This document shows, one piece after another, positions 1 to 24,991 of a DNA stretch of 64,000 nucleotides. A program made the translations under genes and the position numbers. Source of the DNA: Mycobacterium sp. IS-836 (lineage in GTDB: Bacteria > Actinomycetota > Actinomycetes > Mycobacteriales > Mycobacteriaceae). Every line of letters begins with the position of its first letter. Within the stretch, counting starts at the first letter, position 1. The notes under the pieces are model-generated. The model saw nothing but the letters and a program-made list of their open reading frames with translations, was not told the DNA's origin and ran no database searches. The stretch covers positions 62,001 to 126,000 of the forward strand of contig NZ_MBEU01000017.1 of the NCBI RefSeq assembly GCF_001954275.1. The letters run 5' to 3'.

Positions 1-148
1 GGCACCGGTCGCCGCCAAGATCGGTCCGACGGTCGCCGAGGTGCATACGCGGCTCGAGGACACCGGCTATCGGGCGCCCGCCGCGTTCGGCTACCGGCCG
101 TTCGAGGGCGGGCTGGCCCTGCGGCGTCGGGCCCCGGAGCGCATTTAG
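1..148 (+). CDS. C-terminal fragment of an unrecognised protein
   Basis: An open frame enters from the left edge (codons begin at base 2) and ends in TAG at 146-148, giving the last 48 residues of a protein. The fragment has mixed charge, ends in an Arg-rich tail (LRRRAPERI) and shows no domain I can name. Its stop overlaps by four bases the stop of the convergent flavoprotein gene. Codon usage is typical for the window, so it is probably a real gene end, but its function cannot be judged from this piece. Confidence 0.6.
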   Translation, partial: APVAAKIGPTVAEVHTRLEDTGYRAPAAFGYRPFEGGLALRRRAPERI

Positions 149-1842
149 CCCGCTGCGTCGCGGGCCGCGATGTAGCCGTACACCAGCCCCTGCGCGATGG
201 TCGCGCCCGCGCCTGGATAGGTCGTGCCGAACGCATTGGCTGCGGTATTGCCGATTGCATACAGCCCGGCGATGACGCCGCCGTCCTCGCGCAGCACCCG
301 CGCGCGCTCGTCTGCCCTCAGTCCGCCGCAGGTACCCAGATCGGACAGCACCATCTTCACCGCGTAGAACGGGCCTTTGATCAACGGACGCAGGTTGGGG
401 TTCGGCTTGATCGTCGGGTCGCCGTAGTAGCGGTCGTAGGCGCTGCGGCCCCGACCGAAGTCGGGATCCGTACCGGCAGCGGCGTTTTGGTTGAAGCGAG
501 TCATCGTCTGGAAGAATTCCGATACCGAAACACCCATGTGCTCGCCCAAAGCGCTGAAGTTGTCGGCGCGCACCGCGATGCCCGCGTCGTACCACGCCTG
601 TGGAATCCGCATCCTCGGAAAGAGCACGGCACCAAAGACATAACTGTTGCGGTATTGCTGATCGAAGATGATCCACATCGTGTCGACCGGGCTTCCGGCC
701 CGTTCCAACTCGAGCAACCGCTGGCCGAAGGACATGTAGTCCGCCGACTCGTTGGCGAACCGGTGGCCGTTTTGGTCCACGATCAGACAGCCCGGAAGTG
801 ATCGCTCGGCCAGCATCACCGCGGGTGCCTTACCGGGCAGCGGCGCGACGGCGGGGAACCACCATGCCTGATCCATCAGATCGAGGTCGGCGCCCAATTC
901 CTGTCCCGCCCGGATGCCATCGCCGGTATTGGTGTTCGCGCCCAGGCTTACGTTGGCGCCCAACGACTCCGACTGGAATTTCCACCGCATATCCATGGCG
1001 TGGTCGAAACCACCGGTAGCCAGCACCACGCCACGGCGGGCGGTGACGGTCACCTCGCGTCCGTCATGGTCCACGACAGCGCCGGTCACGCGGTCGCCGT
1101 CGCCGGTGAGACGCAGCAGCGCGGTGTCGGTCCACACGGCGATACCGGCGCGCAGCACACCCGCGAACAGCCCGGCCATCAGGCCCTGGCCGCCGGCGGC
1201 GTAACGCCGGCCGAGCAGCCGCCCGCCGACGCCTTGCGTCACTCGCTTGCCGAACGTCGGAATGCCCTTGTGCGGTACGCGTGCAACCAGGTTCATCCAG
1301 CGGTAGTCGGCGCCTGTGGTGGGTATCGGGACGCTCGATTCCATCACGCCGGGCTGTAGCCGGGCACGGTACTCGCCGAGAATCGAGGTATCGAAGGGGC
1401 GGCATTCGCAGGTGCGGCCCGCCGCGCTGCCGCCGGGCTCCTCGGGGTGGTAGTCGGAGTAGTCCCGAGCCCAAAACAGTCGTAGTGGGGTCGTCCGACG
1501 CAGCATTTCGACCGTCGCGGACACGTGCGCTAAGAACTCGGACGAACGCTGTCGGGACGCCGATCCTGCGACCACCGAATCCAGGTAAGCACTGGCGCGC
1601 TCCGTGGTGTCGTCGGCGCCGGCCTCTCGCAGCACCGGGCAGGCGGGGAGCCAGAGAGCACCACCGGACCGCGCCGTCGAGCCACCCACGTAGCAGGACT
1701 TTTCCACGATCAGCACGGACAGCCCGAGTTCATGGGCCGCCAGCGCTGCGGCCATGCCCGTGCCTGAGCCGACAACCAAGAGGTCGACGGTCGTGTCGGC
1801 CACCGGAAGTCCGGCAGGGATGGTCGTGCTGTGCGCAGTCAC
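145..1842 (-). CDS. kstD: 3-ketosteroid delta-1-dehydrogenase (KstD-type FAD protein)
   Basis: Predicted to remove hydrogens from C1 and C2 of 3-ketosteroids using FAD, the step that with 9-alpha-hydroxylation opens ring B. The 565-residue length matches the family. An N-terminal dinucleotide fold is visible (VVGSGTG near residues 23-29, then VVEK-like IVEK and GGST), followed by family blocks YSDYHPE and AYDRYYGDP and the C-terminal TYPGAGAT. In the last, Tyr542 and Gly546 align with the catalytic Tyr/Gly pair described for rhodococcal KstD1. I chose GTG at 1842 because the open frame upstream is unconserved and runs antisense into kshA. It is divergent from kshA across 96 bases. It could act on another cyclic ketone; the family call is firm. 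Confidence 0.9.
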   Translation of the reverse strand: MTAHSTTIPAGLPVADTTVDLLVVGSGTGMAAALAAHELGLSVLIVEKSCYVGGSTARSGGALWLPACPVLREAGADDTTERASAYLDSVVAGSASRQRSSEFLAHVSATVEMLRRTTPLRLFWARDYSDYHPEEPGGSAAGRTCECRPFDTSILGEYRARLQPGVMESSVPIPTTGADYRWMNLVARVPHKGIPTFGKRVTQGVGGRLLGRRYAAGGQGLMAGLFAGVLRAGIAVWTDTALLRLTGDGDRVTGAVVDHDGREVTVTARRGVVLATGGFDHAMDMRWKFQSESLGANVSLGANTNTGDGIRAGQELGADLDLMDQAWWFPAVAPLPGKAPAVMLAERSLPGCLIVDQNGHRFANESADYMSFGQRLLELERAGSPVDTMWIIFDQQYRNSYVFGAVLFPRMRIPQAWYDAGIAVRADNFSALGEHMGVSVSEFFQTMTRFNQNAAAGTDPDFGRGRSAYDRYYGDPTIKPNPNLRPLIKGPFYAVKMVLSDLGTCGGLRADERARVLREDGGVIAGLYAIGNTAANAFGTTYPGAGATIAQGLVYGYIAARDAAG

Positions 1843-1938
1843 GGTGAGAACGGTAGGCCGGGGCGGCGCGACGCAGGAAGACCCGTCCTGATGAGTGGAA
1901 CAAGCGGCTGCCACAGGTCGGGCCGGGGGAGTTAGATC

Positions 1939-3081
1939 ATGGCGATGACGTCGCAGACTGAGGCCGACCCCGTTCGGCTTATTGAAGCGCAGGCCGCACC
2001 GACCCGCTTCGCCCGCGGCTGGCACTGCCTGGGCCTGATCAGAGATTTCGGTGACGGCAAGCCGCACGCGATCGACGCGTTCGGGCACAAGCTTGTCGTC
2101 TTCCGGGGCGGCGACGGCAACATCAGTGTGCTCGATGGTTACTGCCGGCACATGGGCGGTGATCTCTCGCAGGGCGAGGTCAAGGGCAACGAGATCGCGT
2201 GTCCGTTCCACGACTGGCGTTGGGGCGGCGACGGCCGCTGCAAGCGGGTGCCCTACAGCAGGCGCGCACCAAAATTGGCCCGCACACAAGCGTGGACCAC
2301 GCTTGAGCAGGACGGCATGTTGTTCGTCTGGAACGACCCCGAGCGCAAACCGCCGCCGCCGGAAGTCGCCATCCCGCGCATCGAGGGCGCCACCAGCGAC
2401 GACTGGACCGACTGGCACTGGTACACCACAGTCGTGCATAGCAACTGTCGCGAAATCATCGACAACGTCGTGGATATGGCGCACTTCTTCTACATCCACG
2501 GCTCGTTGCCCACGCATTTCAAGAACATCTTCGAGGGCCATGTGGCGACGCAGTACATGAACGGCGGAAGTCGCCCCGACCTGGGGAGTACCGAAGGGTC
2601 GCAGATGCTGGGTACCACGTCGGTGGCGTCCTACTACGGCCCGTCCTTCATGATCGACGATCTGACCTATCACTATGAGGACGGTGATGCGAAGACGATC
2701 CTGATCAATTGTCATTATCCGATTGACTCGAATTCTTTTGTGCTGCAATACGGCATCATCGTGCAGAAAACGGACACGTTGCCCGGGGATCAGGCCGCGG
2801 AGGCGGCGATCAATCTCGGCGACTTCGTGAAGCTGGGCTTCGAGCAGGATGTTGAGATCTGGCGGCACAAGGCGCGCATCGACAACCCGCTGCTGGTCGA
2901 GGAGGACGGCCCGGTTTACCAGCTGCGGCGTTGGTATCAGCAGTTCTACGTCGACGTCGCCGATGTGCAACCAGATATGGTGGACCGCTTCGAGTTTGAG
3001 CTGGACACCACCCGACCCTGCGAGGCGTGGATGAAAGAGATCGAGGCCAACATGGCGGCGCAGGGAGCCGGTTCGGTCTGA
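1939..3081 (+). CDS. kshA: 3-ketosteroid 9-alpha-hydroxylase, Rieske oxygenase subunit
   Basis: The 380-residue oxygenase component hydroxylates C9 of ketosteroids; with the delta-1-dehydrogenase this causes ring B to open. Rieske ligands are Cys69-x-His71 and Cys88-x2-His91. The mononuclear iron ligands His182, His187 (within NVVDMAHFFYIH) and Asp304 match the M. tuberculosis KshA ligands almost position for position. The ATG at 1939 follows a GGGGGAG element. A run around 2690-2760 is lower in GC than its surroundings. No KshB-type reductase is in the window; the small ferredoxin at 20442 could be an electron partner. The next gene starts inside the stop (TGATG), so the two are translationally coupled. 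Confidence 0.93.
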   Translation: MAMTSQTEADPVRLIEAQAAPTRFARGWHCLGLIRDFGDGKPHAIDAFGHKLVVFRGGDGNISVLDGYCRHMGGDLSQGEVKGNEIACPFHDWRWGGDGRCKRVPYSRRAPKLARTQAWTTLEQDGMLFVWNDPERKPPPPEVAIPRIEGATSDDWTDWHWYTTVVHSNCREIIDNVVDMAHFFYIHGSLPTHFKNIFEGHVATQYMNGGSRPDLGSTEGSQMLGTTSVASYYGPSFMIDDLTYHYEDGDAKTILINCHYPIDSNSFVLQYGIIVQKTDTLPGDQAAEAAINLGDFVKLGFEQDVEIWRHKARIDNPLLVEEDGPVYQLRRWYQQFYVDVADVQPDMVDRFEFELDTTRPCEAWMKEIEANMAAQGAGSV

Positions 3082-3380: not shown

Positions 3381-3381
3381 T

Positions 3382-3990
3382 TTACGGCGCTGGAGGGGAT
3401 TGCGACCCGTCCACACCCTTGTGTTCCCGTGGCGTGATGAATACACCCTCGGCTTCCACCGAGACGCCGTCGACGTTACGGAGTTGCCCGACCGCATATG
3501 TTTTGGTGCCATCGATCCGCTCCATTCGCGCCTCGGCTCGCAACGCACCTAGCCGGGTGGGGCGCAGATAGCGCACCGTGAGGGTGCCCGTGTAGGCGGG
3601 TTTACCCGGTTGGTGTGCCGTCGCGCCCAGGACATGGTCCAGGATGAGAGCGCACATCCCGCCGTGCACGTGGCCCGGCGGCCCCTCGTAGCCGGCGCCA
3701 AGGTGCACGTCGGCATGAACGCCGCCCGCCTCGTCGTGCTGGACGACTAGCGGCGGAGCGATCGGGTTACGCAGCCCGACGGCCACATTGCCCCAAACCA
3801 CGTTTTCACCGTCGGGGTTGGTGCGCACACCGAACGATCCAGGCATGAGTCGCGTGCTCAGCAGCTCGACGGTTTGGTCGACCAGAGCCAAGGCCTGCGC
3901 CACGGTGTCTTCGTCGGCCTCGCTGCGAATGGTGACGTCAATGAGCCGTCGCACCGACGCCGTCAGTCGTTCGTGGAGGATGTCAGTCAT
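3382..3990 (-). CDS. PaaI-type hotdog thioesterase
   Basis: A 202-residue protein with a single hotdog domain in its C-terminal half, marked by GHVHGGMCALILDH, the helix region of PaaI-type acyl-CoA thioesterases. It would release free acids from CoA esters formed in the pathway. Its ATG overlaps the stop of the preceding gene (ATGA at 3990-3987), which I prefer to the ATG nine bases upstream. It is the last gene of the minus-strand operon beginning with the acyl-CoA synthetase. Convergent with the kshA pair, one base apart. Substrate unknown. Confidence 0.85.
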   Translation of the reverse strand: MTDILHERLTASVRRLIDVTIRSEADEDTVAQALALVDQTVELLSTRLMPGSFGVRTNPDGENVVWGNVAVGLRNPIAPPLVVQHDEAGGVHADVHLGAGYEGPPGHVHGGMCALILDHVLGATAHQPGKPAYTGTLTVRYLRPTRLGALRAEARMERIDGTKTYAVGQLRNVDGVSVEAEGVFITPREHKGVDGSQSPPAP

Positions 3991-4556
3991 GTGCGCCACC
4001 GTTCATCGCCGTCGCACAGCAGCGTCTCGATCGGATCGACTGAGTCGCAAGGGCTGCCGGCAGCTGCAAGCGCGTAGCCCTTGAACACCCGCGCCGCCGG
4101 GCTTAGCACATGCTGGACGGTGGCCATCGTGCGATTGACCCCGATCGGCCACCCCTCACCCCACAGCGCCACTTCGGTCAGCTGGTGGTCCAGGAATTTG
4201 AACACTGTTTCGCGGATGCGAACATCCCCGGTGAGGACCTCAGCGCTGACGGCCAAACTGTGCCCCGGGATGCGGCTGGCTGTCGAGACCAACTCCAACG
4301 CCGATTTCGAGTTGAGGTCCAAAGCCTGCAGCCCGAGGATCCGTAGCGGCCGGGTATCGCAGCCGCGCGCTAGCAATACCGACACCGACCAACCCGCCCT
4401 GGCCCGGTCAAACAGCCAACCCCCGGCAGACTGCACGACGTCCGCGGCGCCCGCGGCAAACACGTCAAGTCGATATCGCAAATACTCGTCATCAGCGCGG
4501 GTCGCTCGCTCGGTTGCGATCCCGCCGGTCCGGCTGATGTGAATACTCGTGACCAT
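3987..4556 (-). CDS. Unrecognised 189-residue protein in the catabolic operon
   Basis: I do not recognise this family. It is a soluble mixed alpha/beta-looking protein without signal peptide, membrane helix or cofactor motif; it contains single Cys residues in GCDTRPL and SPCDSV. It sits 18 bases after an SDR gene and overlaps the thioesterase start by four bases, so it is co-translated with catabolic enzymes. Codon usage matches the neighbours. A binding or accessory role is possible; no reaction can be assigned. Confidence 0.7.
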   Translation of the reverse strand: MVTSIHISRTGGIATERATRADDEYLRYRLDVFAAGAADVVQSAGGWLFDRARAGWSVSVLLARGCDTRPLRILGLQALDLNSKSALELVSTASRIPGHSLAVSAEVLTGDVRIRETVFKFLDHQLTEVALWGEGWPIGVNRTMATVQHVLSPAARVFKGYALAAAGSPCDSVDPIETLLCDGDERWRT

Positions 4557-4574: not shown

Positions 4575-5360
4575 TCAGGCGTGCGCGCCGCCGTCGATCC
4601 GGATCTCGGTGCCCGTGATGAACGCACCGTCGTCGGAAGCCACCATGGCGATCACCGACGCGACGGAGCTCGGGTCGCCGAGGATGGCGTCGGCTCTCCC
4701 GTGCAGCAACGGTGTCTGCTTGGCCCACAACCCGATGTCGTAGTCGGCGGGCATCTTGTCGAGGGTGCTCAGCGCCAGCGCAGTGGCGACGCCGCCCGGT
4801 TGGATGTTGACGGCGCGCAGCCCCTGTTTGGAGTATTCGAGGGCTAAAGAATGCGTCAACGACAACACTCCACCCTTGCTGGCGGCATACGCGGCCATGT
4901 AGGGATGCGCGAAAGACGCTGCGGTGGAGGTGAAGTTGACGACCACACCGCGGCCGGATTCCAGCAGAGCCGGCAACGCCTGGCGGATCATCAGGAAAGT
5001 GCCGGTCAAGTTCACCGCCAACGTGCGGTTCCAATCGTCCAGCGTGTGCTCATGCGTGTTGGCACAGCGCTGAATGGCAGCGGCGTTGACCAACACGTCG
5101 AGGCCGCCCAGATCGTCGACGGCACGGCTCACCGCGCCGACGACCGCGTCTTCGACTGACACATCGACTATCTCGGTGCTCAACCGTTTAGCCGTGCCGG
5201 CGGTTTCTGCCGCCGCGGTGGTTAGGGCCAGGCCGTCAGGCGAAACGTCATATCCCACTACGGTGCCGCCCTCGTCGAGCAGTCGCAGCGTGGTGGCCTG
5301 CCCGATGCCCGAGCCCGCGCCGGTGATGATAATTCTGCGGTCGTCGAATCGATCTAGCAT
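4575..5360 (-). CDS. Short-chain dehydrogenase/reductase (NAD type)
   Basis: A 261-residue classical SDR. It shows GAGSGIG (residues 14-20), an acidic residue after beta-2 (Asp38) favouring NAD(H), VNAAA in place of NNAG, Ser145, Tyr158 and Lys162 as the catalytic set, and a C-terminal GTEIRIDGG. It probably oxidises a hydroxyl or reduces a ketone of a pathway intermediate. An AAAGG element lies six bases before the ATG. The gene is in the middle of a tightly spaced minus-strand operon. Confidence 0.9.
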   Translation of the reverse strand: MLDRFDDRRIIITGAGSGIGQATTLRLLDEGGTVVGYDVSPDGLALTTAAAETAGTAKRLSTEIVDVSVEDAVVGAVSRAVDDLGGLDVLVNAAAIQRCANTHEHTLDDWNRTLAVNLTGTFLMIRQALPALLESGRGVVVNFTSTAASFAHPYMAAYAASKGGVLSLTHSLALEYSKQGLRAVNIQPGGVATALALSTLDKMPADYDIGLWAKQTPLLHGRADAILGDPSSVASVIAMVASDDGAFITGTEIRIDGGAHA

Positions 5361-5378: not shown

Positions 5379-6455
5379 TCAGGCCGGCTGGAAGGCGCTG
5401 ATCGGCGCCTCGTGCGGATAGTGCGACGGACCGCCGAAGTCATAGGCCGCGTTGAGGGTGCGGATGAACTCAGGGTCGTGCAGTGGGTCGTCCGGCATGG
5501 CAAGTTTTATGCCCTGAGCATTGACGTCCTTGACCATGGTGTCGATGGCCCGCTCGGGGGTCAGGTCGTCGGAGCCTTCCATGTTCTTCTTGAGCTCGTC
5601 GAAATCCGAGAACACCTCGGCCGACCAGTGCACCAGGAACCGCAGTTCGTCGGTGTGGTGGCGCGCGATCACGTCGTCGCCGTTCTTCAGCAGCCAGTGG
5701 TCGCGGTCGTCAGGATCGCCGGTGAAAACCGTGTCGAAGGCCAAACCAGCCGGAACCTGTTGGTCTAGTGGCCCGTTCGCCTCGCCGCGGTGCACCATCA
5801 TCTCGTTCTGCACGACCACGCCGCGGTTGTTGATTGGCGGCAGGACTCGCTGCGGGGGCTGCAGCGGACCGTTTGGCCAATAGGTGAAGCCGCTGCCGGC
5901 ATCCAACGAAAACCAGGTAATTACCTGCGCCATTTTGATCAGGTAATCCTGGAAGAGGCCCGATTTGCCCATGACGCTGGTGAGCCATGTCGGCGCGTTC
6001 TCGTATCGCACGCCGCGGAAGCTCGGTGAATCCAGATGCCCCGGATCACGATTGGCACATGGGCCGTTGATGTTGAACAGCATCAGCTGCGGCTTGGCGT
6101 ATTGCGCGTTCCAATAGCTCTTGGCCATCTCCAGGAACCGCGCGTTGTAGAAACAATCGTGCAGTTGGGGGTAGAGCACCGCGCCATAGTTGGCGAGGTA
6201 GCCGCGGAAGGTGGGCGTGATGAACAGGTCCAGCGACGGCTCGAAGCCTTCGGGGAAGGCGCCGCTCATCGTGGCGATCAGTTCCTCGGGGGACGCGAAG
6301 TGTTGCGCAATGATCAACTTCCACGGGCCCTCCGTACGCACGACATCGAGCAGGCGTTCGCGTTGGTCTTCGGTGTAGACGTTGTCGATCTCGCGAGGGG
6401 GTGCCGCTGGCCGCAACACGTCGGAAAGCTCCATCCGTCGCTCGTCGCTGAGCAT
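5379..6455 (-). CDS. Unrecognised protein with a possible His-Asp-His metal site
   Basis: A 358-residue protein I cannot place by name. It is rich in Trp, Phe and Tyr and has a GHLDSPSFRG segment (His140-x-Asp142) and, about 80 residues later, VHRGEANGP (His222). This HxD...H spacing resembles the facial triad of Fe(II)-dependent oxygenases of the cupin or phytanoyl-CoA type, but the match is weak and no 2-oxoglutarate-binding Arg is clear. A strong AAGGAG precedes the ATG by seven bases, so expression is likely substantial. It lies between an SDR and an esterase in the catabolic operon, which would suit a ring-modifying enzyme. Function is unproven. Confidence 0.75.
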   Translation of the reverse strand: MLSDERRMELSDVLRPAAPPREIDNVYTEDQRERLLDVVRTEGPWKLIIAQHFASPEELIATMSGAFPEGFEPSLDLFITPTFRGYLANYGAVLYPQLHDCFYNARFLEMAKSYWNAQYAKPQLMLFNINGPCANRDPGHLDSPSFRGVRYENAPTWLTSVMGKSGLFQDYLIKMAQVITWFSLDAGSGFTYWPNGPLQPPQRVLPPINNRGVVVQNEMMVHRGEANGPLDQQVPAGLAFDTVFTGDPDDRDHWLLKNGDDVIARHHTDELRFLVHWSAEVFSDFDELKKNMEGSDDLTPERAIDTMVKDVNAQGIKLAMPDDPLHDPEFIRTLNAAYDFGGPSHYPHEAPISAFQPA

Positions 6456-6503: not shown

Positions 6504-7484
6504 TCAGTGCCCCGCGGCGGCGCCCTGTCCGGTGATCGGGACGTCGAATCGGATCGGGTGCGCGAACTTCGCTCGCAGCAGCGCGCCGATCTCGGCGACG
6601 GCCAGCCGGCCCCGCGCCGTTGCGTCAGAGCGCATAAGAAAGCCGTGATACATGCCGGGATAACGGGTGGTGGTGGTCTGTACGCCGGCTTCTCGGAGCC
6701 GGGCCGCGTACCGTTCACCCCAGTCCTGGATCGGATCGCAGCCCGCAGTCACTACGACCGCCGGCGGCAGGTGGGACAGATCGGACGCGTAGGCCGGGAC
6801 CAGGTACGGGTCGCGGGGCGGACCGGTGTTGCCGTCGGCGAGGGCATGCATGTAGTCGATGTCGTCGCGTGCGAGCAGCGGTGCATCAGGCAGCGCAATG
6901 ATCGAGGGAGCGGTCATGTCGCGATCCAAGCCCGGATACAGCAGCACCTGCGCACAGATCTCCGGCCCGTTCCGGTCGCGTGCGGCCAACGCAACCGCGG
7001 CCGCCAGGGACCCGCCTGCGCTGTCGCCGACGACCGCAACTCGGTCGGAGTCGACACCGAGGCCGCGTGCGTTCCGTGATACCCACTCGGTCGCGGCGTA
7101 GGCGTCGTCGAACTGCGCGGGGGGCGGCGACTCGGGCGCCAACCGGTAGTCCACGGCCACGACGGTGGCGCCCGACGCCGACGCCAACTCGCGGGCAAGC
7201 GGTTCGAACGAGTGGTTGGAGCCCATGACGAGCCCACCGCCATGAAAGTAGACCAGCACGGGCAGAACGGAATCGTCTGTGGGACGGTAGATCCGGACAG
7301 AAATCGATCCGGCGGGGCCGGGTATCGTCATATCGCCGATGGTGGCCATCGCGGGCATTTCATCGGGCAGTGGCGCGGATTCGACCGCGGCTCGCACCGC
7401 GGCCAATCCGCGCTGGCGCATCGGTGGGACCGCTCCGAAGGACGCCACTCGCGCGGCGGCGTCGGGATCGAGTGCCGGCGTCAC
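6504..7484 (-). CDS. HSL-family alpha/beta hydrolase (esterase)
   Basis: A 326-residue carboxylesterase of the hormone-sensitive-lipase group. It has the oxyanion motif HGGG (81-84), nucleophile Ser155 in GDSAGG, and Asp250 (GCDP) and His280 (YHGF) completing the triad. No signal peptide, so it acts in the cytoplasm. It would hydrolyse an ester or lactone, which are the products of Baeyer-Villiger oxidation by the neighbouring monooxygenases. Its start overlaps the upstream SDR stop by four bases. Confidence 0.9.
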   Translation of the reverse strand: MTPALDPDAAARVASFGAVPPMRQRGLAAVRAAVESAPLPDEMPAMATIGDMTIPGPAGSISVRIYRPTDDSVLPVLVYFHGGGLVMGSNHSFEPLARELASASGATVVAVDYRLAPESPPPAQFDDAYAATEWVSRNARGLGVDSDRVAVVGDSAGGSLAAAVALAARDRNGPEICAQVLLYPGLDRDMTAPSIIALPDAPLLARDDIDYMHALADGNTGPPRDPYLVPAYASDLSHLPPAVVVTAGCDPIQDWGERYAARLREAGVQTTTTRYPGMYHGFLMRSDATARGRLAVAEIGALLRAKFAHPIRFDVPITGQGAAAGH

Positions 7485-8317
7485 CTCAGCACCGGAGGTC
7501 GTTGTGCAGCAAGCACATTCGCGCGGTCTGCCATGGCCAATGCGACGGTTTGCTGGGTGAGTAGATAGAACCTTCCCTCGGCGGCCTGCTCGAACAACGT
7601 CTCAGCGGCCGCAAGCGGATCCATTGCCGCGGCCTTGATGTCCAGCATGGCGGAGCGTTGCGCCTCGGCGGCACCGGCATCGCTGGCGTCAGGGCCGACT
7701 CCGCCGGCCGCCTCGAAGATGTTGGAGACCACCGCGCCGGGCAGCACGGCCTGGACGTGGATGTGGTGGCCGTGCCCGGCCAATTGAACATCCAGATGCA
7801 GGCACTCGGTCAACGCGAGCACCGCGTGTTTGCTCATGATGTAGGGCGCCTGCAACGGGATTGCGCGTACTGCACCGACCGACGACAGGTTCCACACCCA
7901 GGCTTCCTCGTCGGTGGCCATCATCTTCGGCAGAAATGCGCGGATACCGTGGAAGACGCCGCTGATGTTGATGTCGACGACGCGCCGCCAGTTGGCTATT
8001 GGGGTGTCCCATAGGTAGCCGAACTGCTCGATGCCTGCGTTGTTCACCAGCAGCCGCACCGGGCCGACGTCGCGGTAGACCCGGTCGGCGAGTTTCTGGA
8101 CGGCGTCCGGGTCGGTCACGTCGCACACGATGTCTACCGCCGTGCCGTCCGCTTCGCAAAGTTCGTCGCGCAGCGCGGCGATGGCAACGGCATCGACGTC
8201 GGCAAGGACGACGGCCATGCCCAGGCGGCTGGCGTATCGCGCCATTCCCGCGCCGACCCCGGCGCCGGCCCCCGTGATGACGGCGACACCGCCGGAGAAT
8301 GTTGCGCGTGCGCTCAC
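7481..8317 (-). CDS. Short-chain dehydrogenase/reductase
   Basis: A 278-residue SDR with GAGAGVG (16-22), Asp40 after beta-2 (NAD preference), NNAG (92-95), Ser145 or Ser146, Tyr159 and Lys163. The C-terminal third is longer and more Ala-rich than in minimal SDRs. It overlaps both neighbours by four bases (SnoaL-like gene upstream, esterase downstream), so the three are one translational unit. Likely handles a hydroxyl/keto group of the same substrate series. Confidence 0.9.
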   Translation of the reverse strand: MSARATFSGGVAVITGAGAGVGAGMARYASRLGMAVVLADVDAVAIAALRDELCEADGTAVDIVCDVTDPDAVQKLADRVYRDVGPVRLLVNNAGIEQFGYLWDTPIANWRRVVDINISGVFHGIRAFLPKMMATDEEAWVWNLSSVGAVRAIPLQAPYIMSKHAVLALTECLHLDVQLAGHGHHIHVQAVLPGAVVSNIFEAAGGVGPDASDAGAAEAQRSAMLDIKAAAMDPLAAAETLFEQAAEGRFYLLTQQTVALAMADRANVLAAQRPPVLR

Positions 8318-18230: not shown

Positions 18231-19150
18231 AACCGCATCGCCGCGGGCATCTCGCCGACCCACTGGTGACCCCAGTAGCTGTCGGCGGTGATTTCCTCTG
18301 CGGTGTAATAGGTTTCGTCGACCCGCATGCCGTCGGTGCCGAATTCGATGTCCCAGTCGCCGGGCGCGCGGACGTAGAAGGAGATCATCTTGTCGTTGGT
18401 GTGGCGTCCCAGTGTGGACGACAGCTGGAATCCCTCGGCGTTCACGCGATCCAGCGCCTGGCCCACCGCGTCGAGGGTGTCGACTTCGACCATGATGTGC
18501 ACGAGCCGCGGGTCGCGCTGATGTGCGGCCGGGACGATCGCCATGCTGTGGTGTCGTTCGTTGATGCCCAGGAAGCGAACCCGCACCGGCCCGAACTCTT
18601 TCGGCAGCGGCACCCGGAACGCGCCACGGGAACGGAAACCCAGCACGTCGGTGTAGAAGTCGAACAGCCCGTTGGGATCCATGGCCGGCACGACGACATG
18701 CCCCAGCCCCTGATCGCCGGTGACGAATTTCGCGCCGAACGGGGTGACGACCGGGCTGTGGTCGAGCACCGCCCCGTGAAACACCTCGAGCGTGGTTCCG
18801 GCCGGGTCCTCGAACGTGAGCACCTCTTCCACGCGACGCGCCTCCGCCTCGTCGGTGGACAGCTGTTTGAACGCAACCCCGGCGCCATCGAGGGTGGCCT
18901 TGACCCGCTGCAGCGCCTGGTGGTCGCGCACTTCCCAGCCGACGGTGAGCACCCGGTCGGTGTCACCGGGCAGCACGATCAGCCGGGCTGCCCGCTCGTC
19001 CATGCGCAGATACAGCGCGGACGCGTCGGGGCCTCCTCCTTTTGGTGGGGAGCCTTCCGCGAATCCGAGGACGCCGAAGGCGAATTGCCGCCAGCGATCG
19101 ATATCATTGGTCGAAATAGTAATGTAGCCAAGGCTTTTCAGGTCGCTCAT
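18227..19150 (-). CDS. hsaC: Type I extradiol dioxygenase (HsaC-like)
   Basis: A 307-residue two-module vicinal-oxygen-chelate protein. His151 (GLGHVVV), His218 (LVHIMVE) and Glu269 (WDIEFG) form the iron site expected for BphC/HsaC enzymes, and TLGRHTND supplies the second-shell His. It would cleave a catechol ring next to its hydroxyls (meta cleavage), as HsaC does on 3,4-dihydroxy-secosteroid. Residues 34-40 (SPPKGGG) look like a short insertion relative to HsaC as I remember it. GGAGAA precedes ATG 19150 by eight bases. A paralogue rather than necessarily the cholesterol enzyme. Confidence 0.88.
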   Translation of the reverse strand: MSDLKSLGYITISTNDIDRWRQFAFGVLGFAEGSPPKGGGPDASALYLRMDERAARLIVLPGDTDRVLTVGWEVRDHQALQRVKATLDGAGVAFKQLSTDEAEARRVEEVLTFEDPAGTTLEVFHGAVLDHSPVVTPFGAKFVTGDQGLGHVVVPAMDPNGLFDFYTDVLGFRSRGAFRVPLPKEFGPVRVRFLGINERHHSMAIVPAAHQRDPRLVHIMVEVDTLDAVGQALDRVNAEGFQLSSTLGRHTNDKMISFYVRAPGDWDIEFGTDGMRVDETYYTAEEITADSYWGHQWVGEMPAAMRL

Positions 19151-19164: not shown

Positions 19165-20349
19165 CTAAATCAAGGCTCGCAGTGGACCTTCCGGTGGATC
19201 GATGCCCAGCGAGCTCAGCGCCGACGCGTGGTAGGTGGTGCCGGGGACGTGGATAGCGTGCAGGTGGCCGACATGCACGTCCCGCCAGTACCGCTGCAGC
19301 GGCTTGTCCATCCGCGCCGCGTTGCCGCCCGAGCGGGCGAAGATCTCGTCGACCGCCGACACCGCGCGCCACACCGCGCGAACCTGCGTGCGCCGACCGG
19401 CCGCGCGGTCCGCGAACGACACCTCCTTGCCGGCGGCAACCATGTCGTAGATGCGATCGGCGTTGGCCAGCAGCTCCTGGCGCGCGGCGTTGATGTCGGC
19501 CGCCGCCTCGCCGATGGCGTGCATGACGTAGGGGTCGTCCTTGATCGCCGTTCCCGTGGCTCCGACACGCTCCCGCTGGTAGTCCAGGTGGGCGGCGAGC
19601 GCTCCCTCGGCGATGCCGATGGTCGCCGCAGAAATGCCCAGCGGGAACATCGTCGACCACGGCATCAGGTACAGCGGCTCGGTCATGCCCGCCTCGCGCT
19701 GGGCGGTGCCGTCCATCACCTTCGTCGCGTCCATGGTCCGGTAGGTCGGGACGAACGCGTCCTTGACGATGACGTCCTTGGAGCCGGTTCCGCGCAGCCC
19801 CACCACATTCCACGAGTCCTCGACGATCTCGTAATCCTTGCGCGGCAGGACCATGTGGAGCATCTGCGGCGGCATCAGCGGGATGCCCTTCTCGTCGCCG
19901 AGCATCGCCCCGAGGATGATCCAGTCGCAGTGGTCGGTGCCCGAGCTGAACTGCCAGCGGCCGTTGAAGATGTAGCCGCCGTCGACGGGCTTGGCCACAC
20001 CCTGCGGCGCGTACGGGGAGGCCATCCACGTGTCGACGTCCTCTGCCCAGATTTCCGCGGAGACTTTCGGATCGGCATAGGCCAACTGGTAGGGATGCAC
20101 ACCAACCACGCCGACGATCCAGCCGGCGGCTGGATCCAGCGCCGCAGTGGCCATCGTCGTCTCAGCGAACTCGCGGGGGTGGACCTCGAAGCCCTGGTAT
20201 TGCTTGGTCTGCAGCAGCCGGATCAGGCCGGCACCTTTCATCAGCTTGACGGTGTCGTCGGTGAGGCGGCCAATCCGTTCGGCTTCGGCGGCCTGGTCCC
20301 GCAACTGATCGGCCATGGCAACTACCTGGTCGAGTACCCGCTCGCTCAT
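19165..20349 (-). CDS. hsaA: Flavin-dependent phenol hydroxylase (HsaA-like)
   Basis: A 394-residue protein of the acyl-CoA-dehydrogenase fold group D monooxygenases, the same length as M. tuberculosis HsaA. Shared blocks include AAGWIVGVVGVH, SSYAP-like SPYAPQG, FSSGTDHCDW and VVGLRGTGSKDV, and the C-terminal YWRDVHVGHLHA. HsaA hydroxylates a secosteroid phenol to the catechol that HsaC cleaves, using reduced flavin from HsaB. No HsaB reductase gene is in the window. AGGA lies eight bases before ATG 20349; 14 bases separate it from the dioxygenase gene. Confidence 0.9.
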   Translation of the reverse strand: MSERVLDQVVAMADQLRDQAAEAERIGRLTDDTVKLMKGAGLIRLLQTKQYQGFEVHPREFAETTMATAALDPAAGWIVGVVGVHPYQLAYADPKVSAEIWAEDVDTWMASPYAPQGVAKPVDGGYIFNGRWQFSSGTDHCDWIILGAMLGDEKGIPLMPPQMLHMVLPRKDYEIVEDSWNVVGLRGTGSKDVIVKDAFVPTYRTMDATKVMDGTAQREAGMTEPLYLMPWSTMFPLGISAATIGIAEGALAAHLDYQRERVGATGTAIKDDPYVMHAIGEAAADINAARQELLANADRIYDMVAAGKEVSFADRAAGRRTQVRAVWRAVSAVDEIFARSGGNAARMDKPLQRYWRDVHVGHLHAIHVPGTTYHASALSSLGIDPPEGPLRALI

Positions 20350-20441: not shown

Positions 20442-20720
20442 TCAAAACTTGATGTGGAGATGGTCGCTGGCCGGCCTGGCCTGACACGCGAGAATCAGAC
20501 CGCCGCGCAGGTCGTCGGCTTCCAGGAGGTCGCACGCCGCCATGACGGTCTCGCCCGCGACGACGGTGGCCACACACGAACCGCAGCGGCCCTCCCGGCA
20601 CGAGTGGGGCGCGTCGATGCCCGCATCGAGCAACAGGTCGACCAGGGTCTGACTACGGGGCCAACGCAAACGATGTCGCTGACCATCCAGCTCCACTTCG
20701 ACATGAGCAACTTCCGACAT
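20442..20720 (-). CDS. Stand-alone plant-type 2Fe-2S ferredoxin
   Basis: A 92-residue ferredoxin with ligands in CREGRCGSC and a fourth Cys in LACQARP near the C-terminus; it resembles the C-terminal domain of KshB-like reductases without the flavin part. It would pass electrons to an oxygenase, with kshA or the HxD...H protein as candidates. ATG at 20720 is preferred because upstream codons are unconserved. It is first in the operon, 92 bases ahead of the hsaA-like gene, and divergent from the second Baeyer-Villiger gene. Confidence 0.88.
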   Translation of the reverse strand: MSEVAHVEVELDGQRHRLRWPRSQTLVDLLLDAGIDAPHSCREGRCGSCVATVVAGETVMAACDLLEADDLRGGLILACQARPASDHLHIKF

Positions 20721-20850: not shown

Positions 20851-22467
20851 GTGACCAATCCCGGCCAGCAGCCTCTCGACGTACTAGTGGTCGGCGCGGG
20901 GTTCGCCGGTCTGTACGCCCTACACAAGCTGCGCAGCCAAGGTCTGTCGGTGCGGGTGCTCGAAGCCGCACCCGAGGTGGGCGGGACCTGGTACTACAAC
21001 CGCTATCCGGGCGCGCGCTGCGACGTCGAGAGTGTCGACTACTGCTACTCGTTCTCCGACGAACTGCAGCAGGAATGGAACTGGACCGAAAAGTATGCCA
21101 CCCAGGCCGAGATCCTCGCCTACCTGAACTGGGTCGCCGACAAACTGGACCTGCGCCGCGACATCGCCCTGAACACCCGCGTCGTGTCGGCGGTGCTGGA
21201 TGAGGCCGCGTTGCGCTGGACAGTCACCACCGACGGCGGGCAGGCGCTCTCGGCGCGGTTTTGTCTCATGGCAACCGGCCCGTTGTCGGCTGCGCTCACG
21301 CCGACCTTCGATGGCTTGGACAAATTTGCCGGCCAGATCTACCACACCGCCCAATGGCCCCACGATCCCGTCGACTTCACCGGCAAGCGGGTCGCGGTCA
21401 TCGGCACCGGATCCTCCGGAATTCAGTCGATTCCAATTATCGCCGAGCAGGCATCCCACCTCTATGTCTTCCAGCGGAGCCCCAATTACAGTGTCCCGGC
21501 GGGCAACAAGCCGTTGTCGGCCAAAGAGCTCGACGACATCAAGGCCGGCTACGCGAAGCGGCGCAGGCTGTCGTGGCGCAGCGGCGGTGGCTCGCCGCAC
21601 ATCACCGCCCCGAAGCCGACGATGGAGTGCACGCCAGAAGAGCGTCGAGCGGCGTTCGAAAAGCGATGGCAGCTGGGTGGCGTGCTGTTCTCGAAGACAT
21701 TCCCCGACCAGATGATCGATCTGGCGGCCAATGACGAGGCCCGAAAGTTCTACGAGGAAAAGATCCGGGCCGTCATCGACGATCCCGCGGTCGCCGACAT
21801 GCTGATTCCCAATGACCACCCGATCGGCACCAAGCGAATCTGCACCGACAGCAACTACTTTCAGACCTTCAATCGGACCAACGTGTCGCTGGTCAGCGTG
21901 CGCGCCACTCCGATCGAATCCGTCGACGCGACCGGGATCAACACCACCGAGGCCCGGTACGACGTCGACATGATCGTTCTGGCAACGGGTTTCGACGCTA
22001 TGACCGGGGCGCTGGGCAAGATCGACATCGTCGGACGCGGCGGTGTGGCCCTACGTGACGACTGGGCGCACGGACCTCGCACCTATCTGGGGTTGGGCGT
22101 GGACGGCTTTCCCAATCTGTTTTTGATCTCCGGCCCGGGAGCACCCGCCGTCCTGGCGAACATGGTGCTACACGCGGAAGCTCAGGTGAACTGGATTGCT
22201 GAGGCCATCACCTACCTGGATAACCATGACTACGCCGCGATCGAAGCCACCGTGGACAGCGTGGACGGCTGGGTCGCCGAATGCTCCCGGCGCGCCGAGA
22301 CGACGCTGTTCACCAAGGCGAACTCCTGGTACATGGGCGCGAACGTACCGGGAAAGCCAAGGGGTTTCATGCTGTTCGTCGGGGGCTTCGCGACCTACAA
22401 CGACATCTGCGCCGACGTCGCCGACTCCGGCTACCGCGGATTCGACCTGATCAAGATGCCGCAATGA
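20851..22467 (+). CDS. Class I Baeyer-Villiger monooxygenase
   Basis: A 538-residue enzyme of cyclohexanone-monooxygenase length. FAD motif GAGFAG (15-20), GGTWYYNRYPGARCD, fingerprint FAGQIYHTAQWP (159-170) and NADPH motif GTGSSG are all in place, as is the late ATGFD. It turns a cyclic or side-chain ketone into a lactone or ester. GTG at 20851 begins the conserved sequence; the open frame upstream overlaps the ferredoxin gene and is not credible. It overlaps the next SDR by four bases. It complements the longer monooxygenase at 10627 and may act on another ketone of the same molecule. Confidence 0.93.
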   Translation: MTNPGQQPLDVLVVGAGFAGLYALHKLRSQGLSVRVLEAAPEVGGTWYYNRYPGARCDVESVDYCYSFSDELQQEWNWTEKYATQAEILAYLNWVADKLDLRRDIALNTRVVSAVLDEAALRWTVTTDGGQALSARFCLMATGPLSAALTPTFDGLDKFAGQIYHTAQWPHDPVDFTGKRVAVIGTGSSGIQSIPIIAEQASHLYVFQRSPNYSVPAGNKPLSAKELDDIKAGYAKRRRLSWRSGGGSPHITAPKPTMECTPEERRAAFEKRWQLGGVLFSKTFPDQMIDLAANDEARKFYEEKIRAVIDDPAVADMLIPNDHPIGTKRICTDSNYFQTFNRTNVSLVSVRATPIESVDATGINTTEARYDVDMIVLATGFDAMTGALGKIDIVGRGGVALRDDWAHGPRTYLGLGVDGFPNLFLISGPGAPAVLANMVLHAEAQVNWIAEAITYLDNHDYAAIEATVDSVDGWVAECSRRAETTLFTKANSWYMGANVPGKPRGFMLFVGGFATYNDICADVADSGYRGFDLIKMPQ

Positions 22468-23267
22468 CAGGACTGGTTGACAAAGTCGTGCTGGTAACCG
22501 GCGCCGCCCGCGGCAGCGGACGCGTGCATTGCGAGCGGTTCGCCGACGAGGGCGCCAACGTGATCGCGCTGGACGGGCAGGCGGCCGCAGGCGAATTGAG
22601 CGATACCGCAAGGGAAGTCGAAAATAGGGGCCGGCGCTGCGTGGCCGGCGTGGCCGATGTCAGCGACCTCGAAGCGATGACGGCCGCGATCGATCACGGC
22701 GTCGCCGAGCTGGGTCGGCTTGACGTGATCGTCGCCAACGCCGGAATCCACCTCCCCGGCGCGCCCTCGTGGGAACTGGACCCCCGGGACTGGCAGCGCA
22801 CACTCGACGTCAACCTCACCGGCGTATGGCACACCGTCAAGGCGGCTGTGCCGCACATGGGGGAGGGCGGCGGCTCCATCGTGATCATCAGTTCCACCAA
22901 CGGGATTCGCGGCACGACCAACACCGTCCACTACACCGCCAGTAAGCACGCGGTGGTGGGCCTGGCACGCACCCTGGCCAACGAACTCGGGCCGCGCAGC
23001 ATCCGGGTCAACACCGTCCATCCCGGCGCGGTCGCAACAACCACGCTGCTCAACCAGGCGACGTTCAAGCGCCTGCGGCCCGATCTGGAGAACCCCACGG
23101 CGGCCGATGCAGCCGAGGTGCTCGAGGCGCGCAACCTGCTGCCGGTGCCGTGGCTGGAACCGGTCGACGTGGCCAACGCCGTGGTGTTCTTGGCCTCCGA
23201 CGAGGCTCGCTACATCACGGGTACCCAGCTCGTCGTCGACGCAGGCCTGACGCAGAAGACGACGTGA
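22464..23267 (+). CDS. Mycofactocin-type short-chain dehydrogenase
   Basis: A 267-residue SDR with TGAARGSG (12-19), Asp37, ANAG, Ser143 or Ser144, Tyr157 and Lys161. The block NLLPVPWLEPVDVANAVVFL and the ending GTQLVVDAG are characteristic of the SDR group that keeps a bound NAD and relies on the redox peptide mycofactocin. Coupled to the Baeyer-Villiger gene (ATGA) and to the next SDR (GTGA). Likely oxidises an alcohol to the ketone used by the monooxygenase. The mycofactocin link is by family pattern. Confidence 0.88.
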   Translation: MTGLVDKVVLVTGAARGSGRVHCERFADEGANVIALDGQAAAGELSDTAREVENRGRRCVAGVADVSDLEAMTAAIDHGVAELGRLDVIVANAGIHLPGAPSWELDPRDWQRTLDVNLTGVWHTVKAAVPHMGEGGGSIVIISSTNGIRGTTNTVHYTASKHAVVGLARTLANELGPRSIRVNTVHPGAVATTTLLNQATFKRLRPDLENPTAADAAEVLEARNLLPVPWLEPVDVANAVVFLASDEARYITGTQLVVDAGLTQKTT

Positions 23268-24097
23268 AAGGGCGGCTTGCCGGGAAGGTCGCCCTGATCA
23301 CCGGCGCGGCGCGGGGGATCGGGCGCGCGCAAGCCGTGCGCTTCGCGCAGGAGGGCGCCGATATCGTGGCGCTCGACGTGTGCGGACCGGTCGATACGGT
23401 GGTGATCCCGCACAGCACGCCCGCCGACCTCGACAGCACGGCCGCCCTGGTCACCGAAGCCGGTGCCCGCGTGCACACGGAGATCGTCGACGTGCGGGAC
23501 CTCGCCGGCATGCAGGCCGCCACCGATCACGGCGTCGAGCGGTTCGGCGGACTGGACGTGGTGTGTGCAACCGCGGGAATCACCTCTCGCGGCATGGCGG
23601 TCGATCTGAACGAAACCGCGTGGCACGCCATGCTGGACGTCAACCTCACCGGCGTGTGGCATACGTGCCGGGCCGGGGCGCCGCACCTGATCGCGCGCGG
23701 CGCCGGGGCTCTGGTCCTGACGAACTCGATCGCCGGATTGCGTGGCTTAGTCGGTGTCGCGCACTACACCGCCGCCAAGCACGGTGTGGTCGGTCTGATG
23801 CGCAGCCTTGCGATCGAGCTTGCGCCGCACAATGTTCGGGTCAACTGCGTCCATCCGACGAATGTCGACACTCCGATGATCCAGAACGACGCCGTTAGGA
23901 GCGCGTTTCGCCCGGACTTGGACCGGCCGCCCACGCGTGCCGAGTTCGCCGAGGCGGCTCGCGGCATGAACATGCTCGCGGTGCCGTGGATAGATCCGAT
24001 GGACGTCGCCAACGCCGCGCTGTTCCTGGCCTCCGATGAGGCGCGGTACATCACCGCGGTGACCCTGCCCGTCGATGCTGGCGCCACCCAGCGATGA
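23264..24097 (+). CDS. Mycofactocin-type short-chain dehydrogenase
   Basis: A 277-residue SDR with TGAARGIG (13-20), Asp38, a TAG variant of NNAG (CATAG), Ser155, Tyr168 and Lys172. Like its upstream neighbour it carries NMLAVPWIDPMDVANAALFL and ends TLPVDAGATQR, marks of the mycofactocin-linked group. GTG at 23264 overlaps the preceding stop. The pair probably arose by duplication but differ enough to handle different hydroxyls. Ends 15 bases from the convergent hydrolase. Confidence 0.88.
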   Translation: MKGRLAGKVALITGAARGIGRAQAVRFAQEGADIVALDVCGPVDTVVIPHSTPADLDSTAALVTEAGARVHTEIVDVRDLAGMQAATDHGVERFGGLDVVCATAGITSRGMAVDLNETAWHAMLDVNLTGVWHTCRAGAPHLIARGAGALVLTNSIAGLRGLVGVAHYTAAKHGVVGLMRSLAIELAPHNVRVNCVHPTNVDTPMIQNDAVRSAFRPDLDRPPTRAEFAEAARGMNMLAVPWIDPMDVANAALFLASDEARYITAVTLPVDAGATQR

Positions 24098-24112
24098 GGG
24101 ATTGACGGGCAG

Positions 24113-24991
24113 TTAGCCGTTCTCTCGCGACAGGAACGCCAGGACCGTACTTTCGAACGCTTCCTTGGCTTCGATCATCGCCCAGTGCCCTGAGTTGGGG
24201 AATATGTGAAGTTCCGCGTTGGGAATGGTGCGCATGGGGATCAGCGCCATGTCGGGCGGGCTCACCCTGTCGTCTCGGCCCCATGTCAGCAGGGTTGGCA
24301 CCGTCAGCTTGTGCATGACGGCCCACGGCATCGGCCGGTCGGACGCCGCCATGGCGGAGTTCATCCCGGCGAACGCCGCCTTGCCGTACATGCGGCGCGC
24401 GGCGTCCAGCGTCGCGGGATCGGTGGCTAGCGACCAGCGTTCCTCGATCAGCTCATCGGTGACCAACGACTGGTCGTACACCATCGATTTCAGCCAGTCG
24501 ACGAGCCGCTGCCGGGTGGGGTCTTCGACGAATTCCTGCAACAGCCGGATGCCCTCGCTGGGGCTGGGGCTGAAGATGTTTGTCCCGATGCCGCCGATCG
24601 TGACGAGCCGACCGACGCGATCGGGATTGGCGATGGCGAAATTGATGCCGACACCGCCGCCCATCGAGTTGCCTACGATGTGCACTCTGTCGACGCCCAG
24701 CGCGTCCAGGAAAGGCGACACGGTGCCGAACGCCGTCACCATCGGGTGGCCGCCGAAGTCGTCGCTGACCCCGAAGCCGGGAAATTCCAGGATCACGCAG
24801 CGGAAGCGCTCGGCGAAGGTGGGCAGTACCCCGCGAAAGTTGCGCCACCCGGTGACGCCGGGCCCGGAGCCATGCAGGAACAGCAACACCGGGCCGGACT
24901 CGGGGCCGCAGTCGTAGTAGCGCAATGCGCCCTTCGGCGTGCTGATCTCGCGCAGGTCGTGCTCGACGGTCGTCTCAGGAGTCTTGGCCAC
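24113..24991 (-). CDS. hsaD: Meta-cleavage product hydrolase (HsaD-like)
   Basis: A 292-residue alpha/beta hydrolase nearly identical in length to HsaD. Catalytic Ser109 lies in GNSMGG, Asp240 or Asp241 in GRDDRVSP and His269 in SGHW; LHGSGPGVTGW supplies the oxyanion region and FSPSPSEG the lid start seen in HsaD. It would split the C-C bond of the ring-opened product of the HsaC-like enzyme. It stands 3.4 kb from the hsaA/hsaC pair on the same strand, behind a SnoaL-like gene. Confidence 0.88.
   Translation of the reverse strand: MAKTPETTVEHDLREISTPKGALRYYDCGPESGPVLLFLHGSGPGVTGWRNFRGVLPTFAERFRCVILEFPGFGVSDDFGGHPMVTAFGTVSPFLDALGVDRVHIVGNSMGGGVGINFAIANPDRVGRLVTIGGIGTNIFSPSPSEGIRLLQEFVEDPTRQRLVDWLKSMVYDQSLVTDELIEERWSLATDPATLDAARRMYGKAAFAGMNSAMAASDRPMPWAVMHKLTVPTLLTWGRDDRVSPPDMALIPMRTIPNAELHIFPNSGHWAMIEAKEAFESTVLAFLSRENG

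Follow-up and report, generated by a model that had tools for sequence, protein, structure and literature searches.

A conserved mycobacterial gene island with a second steroid ring A/B-opening set and a candidate progestin side-chain module

Which steroid would a second set of ring-opening enzymes serve in a bacterium that already carries the canonical one? The question arises from a compact gene block, hereafter the island, which extends from kstD (145) as far as position 25583, the end of a SnoaL gene, in a 64-kb stretch of DNA from Mycobacterium sp. IS-836 (contig NZ_MBEU01000017.1, positions 62,001 to 126,000; the whole stretch is called the window). Because the island encodes a Baeyer-Villiger monooxygenase (BVMO) of the steroid monooxygenase (STMO) type together with a 3-ketosteroid Δ4-(5α)-dehydrogenase, we propose, with a probability of roughly 0.55, that its second KstD-KshA-HsaA-HsaC-HsaD set degrades C21 20-ketosteroids of the progesterone type, and likely 5α-pregnanes too. 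Progesterone-like steroids are likely degraded here by a separate route under its own control.

A second set of ring A/B-opening enzymes

Genes of the window, part of a 5.0-Mb genome in 94 contigs, were called by codon scores and corrected by profile searches, which also set the limits of the island. Its open reading frames (ORFs) were scanned with Pfam and NCBIfam, and nearest characterised relatives were sought among PDB sequences. A preliminary description of this DNA had claimed relatives of KstD, KshA, HsaA, HsaC and HsaD within 25 kb, each with its catalytic residues, and all five are present at 145–24991. They are listed here with the Δ4-(5α)-dehydrogenase and a small ferredoxin, neither of which that description had recognised:

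145..1803, minus strand: KstD, 3-ketosteroid Δ1-dehydrogenase, 552 aa (NF009479 1072 bits, cut-off 793, scored on a longer reading, 145-2970)
1939..3081, plus strand: KshA, 3-ketosteroid 9α-hydroxylase oxygenase, KshA5-like (KshA_C 9e-92; 4qdf_B 611 bits)
16764..18230, minus strand: 3-ketosteroid Δ4-(5α)-dehydrogenase (nearest characterised relative 4at0, 745 bits; next best 100)
18227..19150, minus strand: HsaC-like extradiol dioxygenase (NF045631 355 bits; 2zi8 281 bits)
19165..20316, minus strand: HsaA-like flavin monooxygenase, oxygenase part (2or0 547 bits, 3afe 311)
20442..20720, minus strand: 92-aa [2Fe-2S] ferredoxin, KshB C-terminal-like (PF00111 1e-15)
24113..24991, minus strand: HsaD-like meta-cleavage-product hydrolase (7zjt 216 bits; NF045632 280, cut-off 400)

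The start of the first gene had been set too early (941 aa) and is replaced by the codon-score call; HsaC, which lies under a longer ORF, was placed by searching the genome with the HsaC model. Residues Y118/Y356/Y529 of KstD, H151/H218/E269 of HsaC, S109/D240/H269 of HsaD, and the Rieske cysteines C69 and C88 with D179 of KshA are all in place, at positions that we take to be catalytic. The island KshA scores higher against 4qdf_B than against 4qdc (541 bits) or 2zyl (528 bits), presumably KshA5, KshA1 and M. tuberculosis KshA, respectively; 3afe is presumably HsaA. HsaA, HsaC and HsaD fall under the NCBI equivalog cut-offs (366 of 450, 355 of 450 and 280 of 400 bits), and we therefore treat them as relatives rather than as strict HsaACD.

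The set had been called complete, which goes too far: Pfam gave no HsaB, full KshB or HsaEFG among the island ORFs scanned, and only a ferredoxin domain. KshA requires a reductase, and the only KshB-type component in the island is the 92-aa ferredoxin, which shares 51% identity with the last part of a longer, KshB-like ORF before KshA in Rhodococcus jostii RHA1. By hand count, 35 of 77 other mycobacterial islands (20 chosen genomes plus 57 named loci, some from the same strain) contain a match at ≥50% identity that spans over 80 of the 92 residues. This ferredoxin is likely the electron donor of KshA.

The same genome holds another kshA, kstD and hsaADC set. Contig C10 carries a canonical kshA, 62% identical to the island KshA, and 8 kb from it a kstD, 42% identical to the island KstD, while HsaA, HsaD and HsaC lie in a row on contig C85 (HsaA and HsaD each 42% identical to the island copies; HsaC 566 bits). 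The preliminary description had proposed a parallel pathway outside KstR control, and had allowed that the genes would be the ordinary pathway in a rearranged position if the genome held no other such set and they responded only to cholesterol; the set on C10 and C85 removes the first half of that proviso, and the parallel pathway gains support.

Trees against the canonical copies, which had been suggested as a check, separate three of the five proteins. Built by a quick method with Shimodaira-Hasegawa-like approximate likelihood ratio (SH-aLRT) support, they comprised 39 rows for HsaA, 35 for HsaC and 26 for HsaD, with canonical rows from 11 mycobacterial genomes (10 for HsaD) plus a Tsukamurella plasmid. 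Island HsaA, HsaC and HsaD cluster with the copies on R. jostii plasmid pRHL1, away from the canonical copies, and the R. erythropolis R138 copies of HsaA and HsaC also fall in the island clade. Support for this clade is 98 for HsaC and 99 for HsaD; for HsaA it is 88 for the island rows alone and 99 when a group of 60% relatives is included. In the HsaA tree, the long-branch row isl_G117_2 (5.2) lies outside the island clade, so that the island label takes two changes; the canonical label also takes two, the Tsukamurella row standing apart, and no rows were removed before this count. Because the island label, among whose 18 rows are shorter flavin adenine dinucleotide (FAD) protein rows, takes two changes in the KstD tree as well, and because the KshA tree has just two canonical rows, a separate clade is claimed for HsaA, HsaC and HsaD only. 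Since the mycobacterial island copies group with Rhodococcus copies in these three trees, the split between island and canonical forms is likely older than the genera.

A candidate side-chain module

As the preliminary description had it, the ring enzymes are mixed with Baeyer-Villiger enzymes, esterases, short-chain dehydrogenases/reductases (SDRs) and an IclR regulator: there are two BVMOs, two HSL-type esterases, several SDRs and one IclR. Its account did not extend to the STMO identity of one BVMO, nor its gene list to the mycofactocin coupling of two SDRs or the Dabb gene. The genes that may act on the side chain, or that accompany the STMO-type gene in other genomes, are as follows:

6504..7421, minus strand: HSL-type esterase 1, HSL1 (PF07859; LipP1 304, cut-off 350)
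10627..12555, plus strand: BVMO1, N-terminally extended Baeyer-Villiger monooxygenase
12552..13439, plus strand: SDR3, candidate 17β-hydroxysteroid dehydrogenase (by its position in other clusters and 69-71% relatives)
13891..14523, minus strand: Dabb-domain protein (PF07876 1e-16)
14516..14863, minus strand: 115-aa protein, predicted NIPSNAP/ABM-like fold (model predicted local distance difference test 82, Foldseek E 5.8e-5)
14875..15792, minus strand: HSL-type esterase 2, HSL2, candidate 17-acetate esterase (LipP1 388, cut-off 350)
20887..22467, plus strand: BVMO2, STMO type (4aos 815 bits)
22464..23267, plus strand: SDR4, mycofactocin-coupled (TIGR03971 324, cut-off 300)
23264..24097, plus strand: SDR5, mycofactocin-coupled (TIGR03971 370, cut-off 300)

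BVMO2 scores 815 bits against R. rhodochrous STMO (4aos) versus 616 against phenylacetone monooxygenase (PAMO), and is identical to the former at 351 of 522 positions (67%). At the 243 sites where STMO and PAMO differ, it matches STMO at 121, PAMO at 40 and neither at 82, and the BVMO fingerprint FAGQIYHTAQWP is found at position 147. By its nearest characterised relative and this fingerprint, BVMO2 is of the STMO type and is predicted to convert progesterone to testosterone acetate. This is the reaction reported for R. rhodochrous STMO in PMC12239570, where lactonisation of androstenedione was not observed.

BVMO1 is 36% identical over 633 columns to SARO_RS19385, a BVMO whose gene adjoins a TetR gene on plasmid pNL2 of Novosphingobium aromaticivorans. 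In all likelihood this is Saro_3708, which is compared in PMC12239570 with the progesterone BVMO of Caenibius tardaugens.

Gene order in other genomes ties the module together. A relative of HSL2 (47-48% identical) immediately follows the STMO gene in R138, RHA1 and genome G251, and in R138 and G251 SDR3 comes directly after this pair, its relatives in the Rhodococcus clusters and G251 being 69-71% identical. The row of STMO, esterase and SDR3 in R138 and G251 is the BVMO-esterase-dehydrogenase order that the chemistry requires. The R138 hydrolase that follows STMO was also considered as an HsaD, and rejected as such: it is the HSL2 relative. We further compared the 80 best of at least 567 named loci, 57 of them with the full 21 kb; genes were counted at >48% identity over half their length, and KstD and KshA often lie beyond the 10-kb flank. 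Among these 57 loci, none that lacks STMO showed BVMO1, SDR3, the Dabb gene or the 115-aa gene; BVMO1 occurs in 40 of 46 loci with STMO versus none of 11 without it (Fisher 7e-8, a value that ignores relatedness and the 10-kb flanks).

The Δ4-(5α)-dehydrogenase, assigned by its 745-bit match, fits 5α-steroids. A Sphingobium Δ4-dehydrogenase, likened to the island enzyme by description only, acts on 5α-pregnane-3,20-dione (PMC10653915).

Regulation and a candidate operator

The regulator and the element before it are:

15789..16628, minus strand: IclR-family regulator (PF01614, PF09339)
16660..16682, no strand: candidate IclR operator, 23-bp palindrome ATATATTCCTATTAGGAATATAT

No exact copy of the KstR operator, whose consensus is TNNAACNNGTTNNA, occurs in the 64-kb window (a search for exact matches only), in agreement with the preliminary description; the KstR2 motif has no exact match in the window either. 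Two exact KstR sites lie in the 20-kb stretch around the canonical hsa genes. The canonical hsaADC locus thus shares its reaction types with the island and differs from it in identity (42%), clade and these two nearby sites.

A perfect 23-bp palindrome, which the preliminary description does not mention, lies upstream of iclR, and its core TATTCCTANTAGGAATA occurs once, as an exact match, in the 5.0-Mb genome. We surveyed the 250 bp upstream of the aligned start of 67 iclR genes, the window's included and some strains represented twice. TATTCC-N5-GGAATA precedes 38 of the 67 exactly, 47 with at most one mismatch and 52 with at most two; no other site at ≤1 mismatch was found in the 1,742,572 bases of the surveyed loci. 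The RHA1 pRHL1 cluster and G251 each have one site, with one mismatch, beside iclR, where single-base shuffling leads one to expect 0.05 and 0.0 sites per stretch, respectively. A search for an operator common to the other island promoters gave no convincing motif, only GC-rich matches. IclR likely binds the palindrome before its own gene, and a binding test could use this sequence as it stands.

Conservation across genomes

In 148 genomes drawn from the genus, island-type HsaA (E ≤ 1e-200) is present in 93; four have a 60% relative, 41 weaker matches only, and 10 no match at 1e-80. Island-class HsaC (355-377 bits) is found in 43 of 78 genomes, so the cluster is common in the genus. Hosts of island-type HsaA include M. 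interjectum, M. gordonae, M. scrofulaceum, M. triplex (without STMO) and Mycolicibacterium novocastrense; in genome G116 the protein is 100% identical (rounded). Among 20 genomes chosen for spread, HsaA has HsaC nearby in 17, and an STMO-type BVMO is present in 14. Across the 57 loci, HsaC occurs in 56, HsaD in 52, IclR in 51, the Δ4-(5α)-dehydrogenase in 50, STMO in 46, the Dabb and 115-aa genes in 41 each, BVMO1 and SDR3 in 40 each, SDR4 in 34 and HSL2 in 31. The A/B-ring island is thus real, widespread and of its own ancestry; its genes, their families, the separate HsaA/HsaC/HsaD clade, the conserved cluster and the conserved palindrome can all be read from the DNA itself.

Outside the genus, we chose 10 genomes from 33 with a KshA match at 1e-165; three have no HsaC or HsaD within 40 kb. 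In G251 the genes fall in two stretches, KshA-HsaA-HsaC-STMO-HSL2-SDR3-SDR2-BVMO1 and HsaD-Dabb-115aa-IclR-KstD-SDR1-KshA. In the upstream flanks of loci L011 and L030, a search at 1e-10 with matches spanning half the query found no relatives of island genes.

Several variants were seen in passing. Paired HsaA-like copies, 82-89% identical to the window's and 9.6-11.8 kb apart, occur at G053:C45:381759-395068 and also in G004, G024, G093 and G136, with HsaC adjoining each copy in G053 and G004, which suggests tandem duplication of the ring set. At L099, L101 and L103 (genomes G016, G022 and G069), a 58-60% HsaA relative has no other island gene within the 40 kb examined, and in G022 it is present twice, 14.6 kb apart; these lone relatives are likely another monooxygenase family. 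A variant cluster at L206 (G018:C11; HsaC 62%, HsaA 64%, canonical-like KshA 59%, HsaD 47%, IclR 52%) may be a third type of steroid cluster. A weak third HsaC class (232-261 bits, five matches) was considered as the C-19+ cluster and set aside: in the three of its five loci that were examined, no relative of HsaA, KshA or KstD was found within the limits set.

Comparison with known systems

Clusters of this kind are already in print. A kshA occurs in each of the four sterol clusters of RHA1, and ro09003 is one of these genes (PMC4064121); the A/B-ring cluster on pRHL1 is described as of unknown function and closest to the cholate cluster, with M. smegmatis proteins grouped with RHA1 cluster 2 (PMC4810484). 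The pRHL1 cluster that we compared is that of kshA4 ro09003, matched by plasmid and role rather than by tag. It shares with the island the gene set (KstD 64% identical, KshA 57%, HsaA 69%, HsaC 62%, HsaD 58%, IclR 57%, SDR3 71%, STMO 61%, esterase 48%, Dabb 50%, 115-aa 53%, BVMO1 41%), the HsaA/HsaC/HsaD clade and the one-mismatch iclR site, but has a longer ORF, read as KshB, before KshA, and spreads its genes over ~45 kb of plasmid. PDB entry 2or0 was rejected as the pRHL1 HsaA, with 89 of 143 fragment residues identical; a further RHA1 cluster is therefore also related. Plasmid pLRE138 of R. erythropolis R138 carries IclR, KshA, HsaA, HsaC, STMO, esterase, two SDRs and BVMO1 in a row, but its KshA scores higher against the canonical query, and relatives of KstD and HsaD were not seen in the 41-kb stretch.

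The pdc cluster of C. tardaugens shares the progesterone Baeyer-Villiger step, and progesterone induces a BVMO and also a hypothetical/Dabb/oxidoreductase set, likened to the island genes by description, whose Dabb gene lies elsewhere in that genome (PMC12239570). The pdc cluster differs in its TetR and LuxR regulators, luciferase-like monooxygenase, separately placed ring genes and lack of an assigned esterase; among the island ORFs scanned by Pfam there was no luciferase-like, TetR or LuxR gene, and IclR stands instead. The C-19+ clusters of M. smegmatis and M. neoaurum, for which kstD, kshA and kshB are named, resemble the island, by description only, in that they too give mycobacteria a second kstD/kshA set that is not part of the KstR regulon, and differ in being described for C19 steroids (PMC5962712). 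Steroid genes of R. ruber include kstD, kshA, hsaC, iclR and chnB (PMC6498646) and are perhaps a relative of the island.

Among the open-licence literature matches listed, we found no account of a progestin cluster from mycobacteria or rhodococci, which unlisted or subscription papers could hold, and none of the mycobacterial form of the cluster, its operator or the C21 assignment. R. rhodochrous STMO is long known, with its pathway undescribed, and the 17-acetate hydrolase is unknown even in C. tardaugens, according to PMC12239570. The island supplies a candidate for each step of a progestin route, and a function for the orphan pRHL1 cluster becomes testable; if the proposal is true, that cluster gains one.

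Proposed pathway and alternatives

Each reaction, substrate and regulatory link in the following scheme is one that we infer from homology and gene order. SDR4 or SDR5 would oxidise a 3-hydroxyl to the 3-ketone, after which the Δ4-(5α)-dehydrogenase would add the 4-ene and KstD the 1-ene. Oxygen insertion at the C17-C20 bond by the STMO-type BVMO would give the 17-acetate, an HSL esterase, most likely HSL2, would free the 17-alcohol, and SDR3 would oxidise it to the 17-ketone. KshA, with electrons via the KshB-like ferredoxin, would 9α-hydroxylate the product so that ring B opens. On ring A, the HsaA-like enzyme would act as the hydroxylase, the HsaC-like one as the cleaving dioxygenase and the HsaD-like one as the hydrolase. 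The products would enter a shared lower pathway, proposed because no HsaEFG or C/D-ring genes were recognised in the island.

C21 20-ketosteroids are the likeliest substrate, and C19 steroids come next. Several observations weigh against the C21 assignment. STMO-family enzymes accept other ketones, and in Mycobacterium the esterase and SDR3 genes are not adjacent to STMO. STMO is missing within ~10 kb of HsaA in 11 of the 57 loci, which keep the Δ4-(5α)-dehydrogenase (8), HsaC (10) and HsaD (10), and 6 of the 10 other-genus relatives have KshA-HsaA-HsaC-HsaD-IclR without a BVMO, their KshA being of the same KshA5-like type as the island's. Since the ring core is kept without a BVMO in some species, the core needs no side-chain cutter and may serve C19 steroids. 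On the regulatory side, no site precedes 15 of the 67 iclR genes even when two mismatches are allowed, and no operator-like site was seen near the R138 iclR genes. A plain progesterone route offers the acyl-CoA synthetase, thioesterase and SnoaL genes no clear function.

The loci without STMO, where HsaA and, in most cases, the other ring genes remain, are an argument that the core is a ring-opening pathway for androgens and 5α-androstanes, akin to the C-19+ cluster of M. smegmatis (PMC5962712), with the BVMOs optional. We consider this unlikely, though it is the strongest competitor, since the STMO-type BVMO is intact in the window and kept in 46 of the 57 loci, and C19 steroids need no C17-C20 cutter. 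Degradation of plant steroids through C21 intermediates, with sapogenins or steroidal alkaloid aglycones (tomatidine, diosgenin; 3β-hydroxy, partly 5α) as substrates, appears improbable. The Δ4-(5α)-dehydrogenase would suit it, and so would the distribution of a 358-aa island protein: of 22 plasmid records with a match to it, 17 show 68-72% identity, and every one of these is from Novosphingobium or Sphingobium. 'Tom' strains are among these records, and we take them to be isolates of the tomatidine/diosgenin study. The 358-aa and BVMO1-like genes do occur in sphingomonads, some of which are probably sapogenin degraders, and this too tells against a plain progesterone substrate; yet the relative on pNL2 adjoins testosterone-type genes, no glycosidase or recognisable E/F-ring enzyme was found among the ORFs scanned, and strain RC1, which degrades tomatidine and diosgenin (PMC10653915), has a plasmid match of just 47%.

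Shared enzyme families and the broad substrate range of R. rhodochrous KshA5 (PMC6678751) could be taken to mean that the island is a redundant copy acting on cholesterol intermediates, but its lack of an exact KstR site, its own IclR and palindrome, its separate clade and its extra BVMO and 5α enzymes make this a poor prospect. The preliminary description had left room for another steroid or a triterpenoid-like polycycle; the steroid part stands, narrowed to C21 20-ketosteroids, and nothing was found that points to triterpenoids in particular. Were the substrate a polycycle outside the steroids (a diterpenoid or triterpenoid), the unplaced acyl-CoA synthetase, thioesterase, SnoaL and 2-oxoglutarate oxygenase-like genes could serve it; this is the least probable reading of all, the KstD equivalog, KshA, Δ4-(5α)-dehydrogenase and STMO-type BVMO being nearest to characterised steroid enzymes. 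Degradation of C21 20-ketosteroids remains our preferred reading. More tentatively, the island may represent an actinobacterial C21-steroid catabolon that combines a BVMO-esterase-17β-hydroxysteroid dehydrogenase cassette for the side chain, a 5α entry enzyme, a private ring set, a KshB-derived mini-ferredoxin and an IclR operator with a new, Pfam-invisible family of Fe(II)/2-oxoglutarate steroid oxygenases shared with sphingomonads and Gammaproteobacteria.

Remaining genes and neighbouring features

The other genes of the island, to whose earlier list the acyl-CoA synthetase and SnoaL genes are additions, are:

3382..3990, minus strand: hotdog thioesterase (PF03061 3e-9)
3987..4556, minus strand: 189-aa protein (no Pfam match)
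4575..5360, minus strand: SDR1 (PF00106)
5379..6455, minus strand: 358-aa protein, predicted Fe(II)/2-oxoglutarate dioxygenase
7481..8245, minus strand: SDR2 (PF00106)
8314..8793, minus strand: SnoaL-like protein 1 (PF13577)
8917..10524, minus strand: acyl-CoA synthetase (PF00501; NF006182 809, cut-off 663)
13458..13901, plus strand: SnoaL-like protein 2 (PF13577 1e-23)
25116..25583, minus strand: SnoaL-like protein 3, island edge (PF13577)

Against PDB sequences, the 358-aa protein reaches a best E of only 0.19. It has a double-stranded β-helix fold and is predicted to be an Fe(II)/2-oxoglutarate dioxygenase; H140, D142 and H222, candidate residues of an HxD...H iron triad, are invariant in 45 alignment rows. 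The 189-aa gene beside the thioesterase was recovered, under the filters applied, only in the closest relative, G116.

No tRNA genes were found in the 64-kb window. Beyond the island lie a third HSL-type esterase (29685-30614) and an ABC exporter carrying two FHA domains (30988-33621). A row of TetR, P450, enoyl-CoA hydratase, double-length class III CoA transferase and two SDR genes at 46118-52858 is another catabolic operon. At 40547-42169, a sulfatase (PF00884) adjoins an FAD monooxygenase, and it could be relevant if steroid sulfates are substrates.

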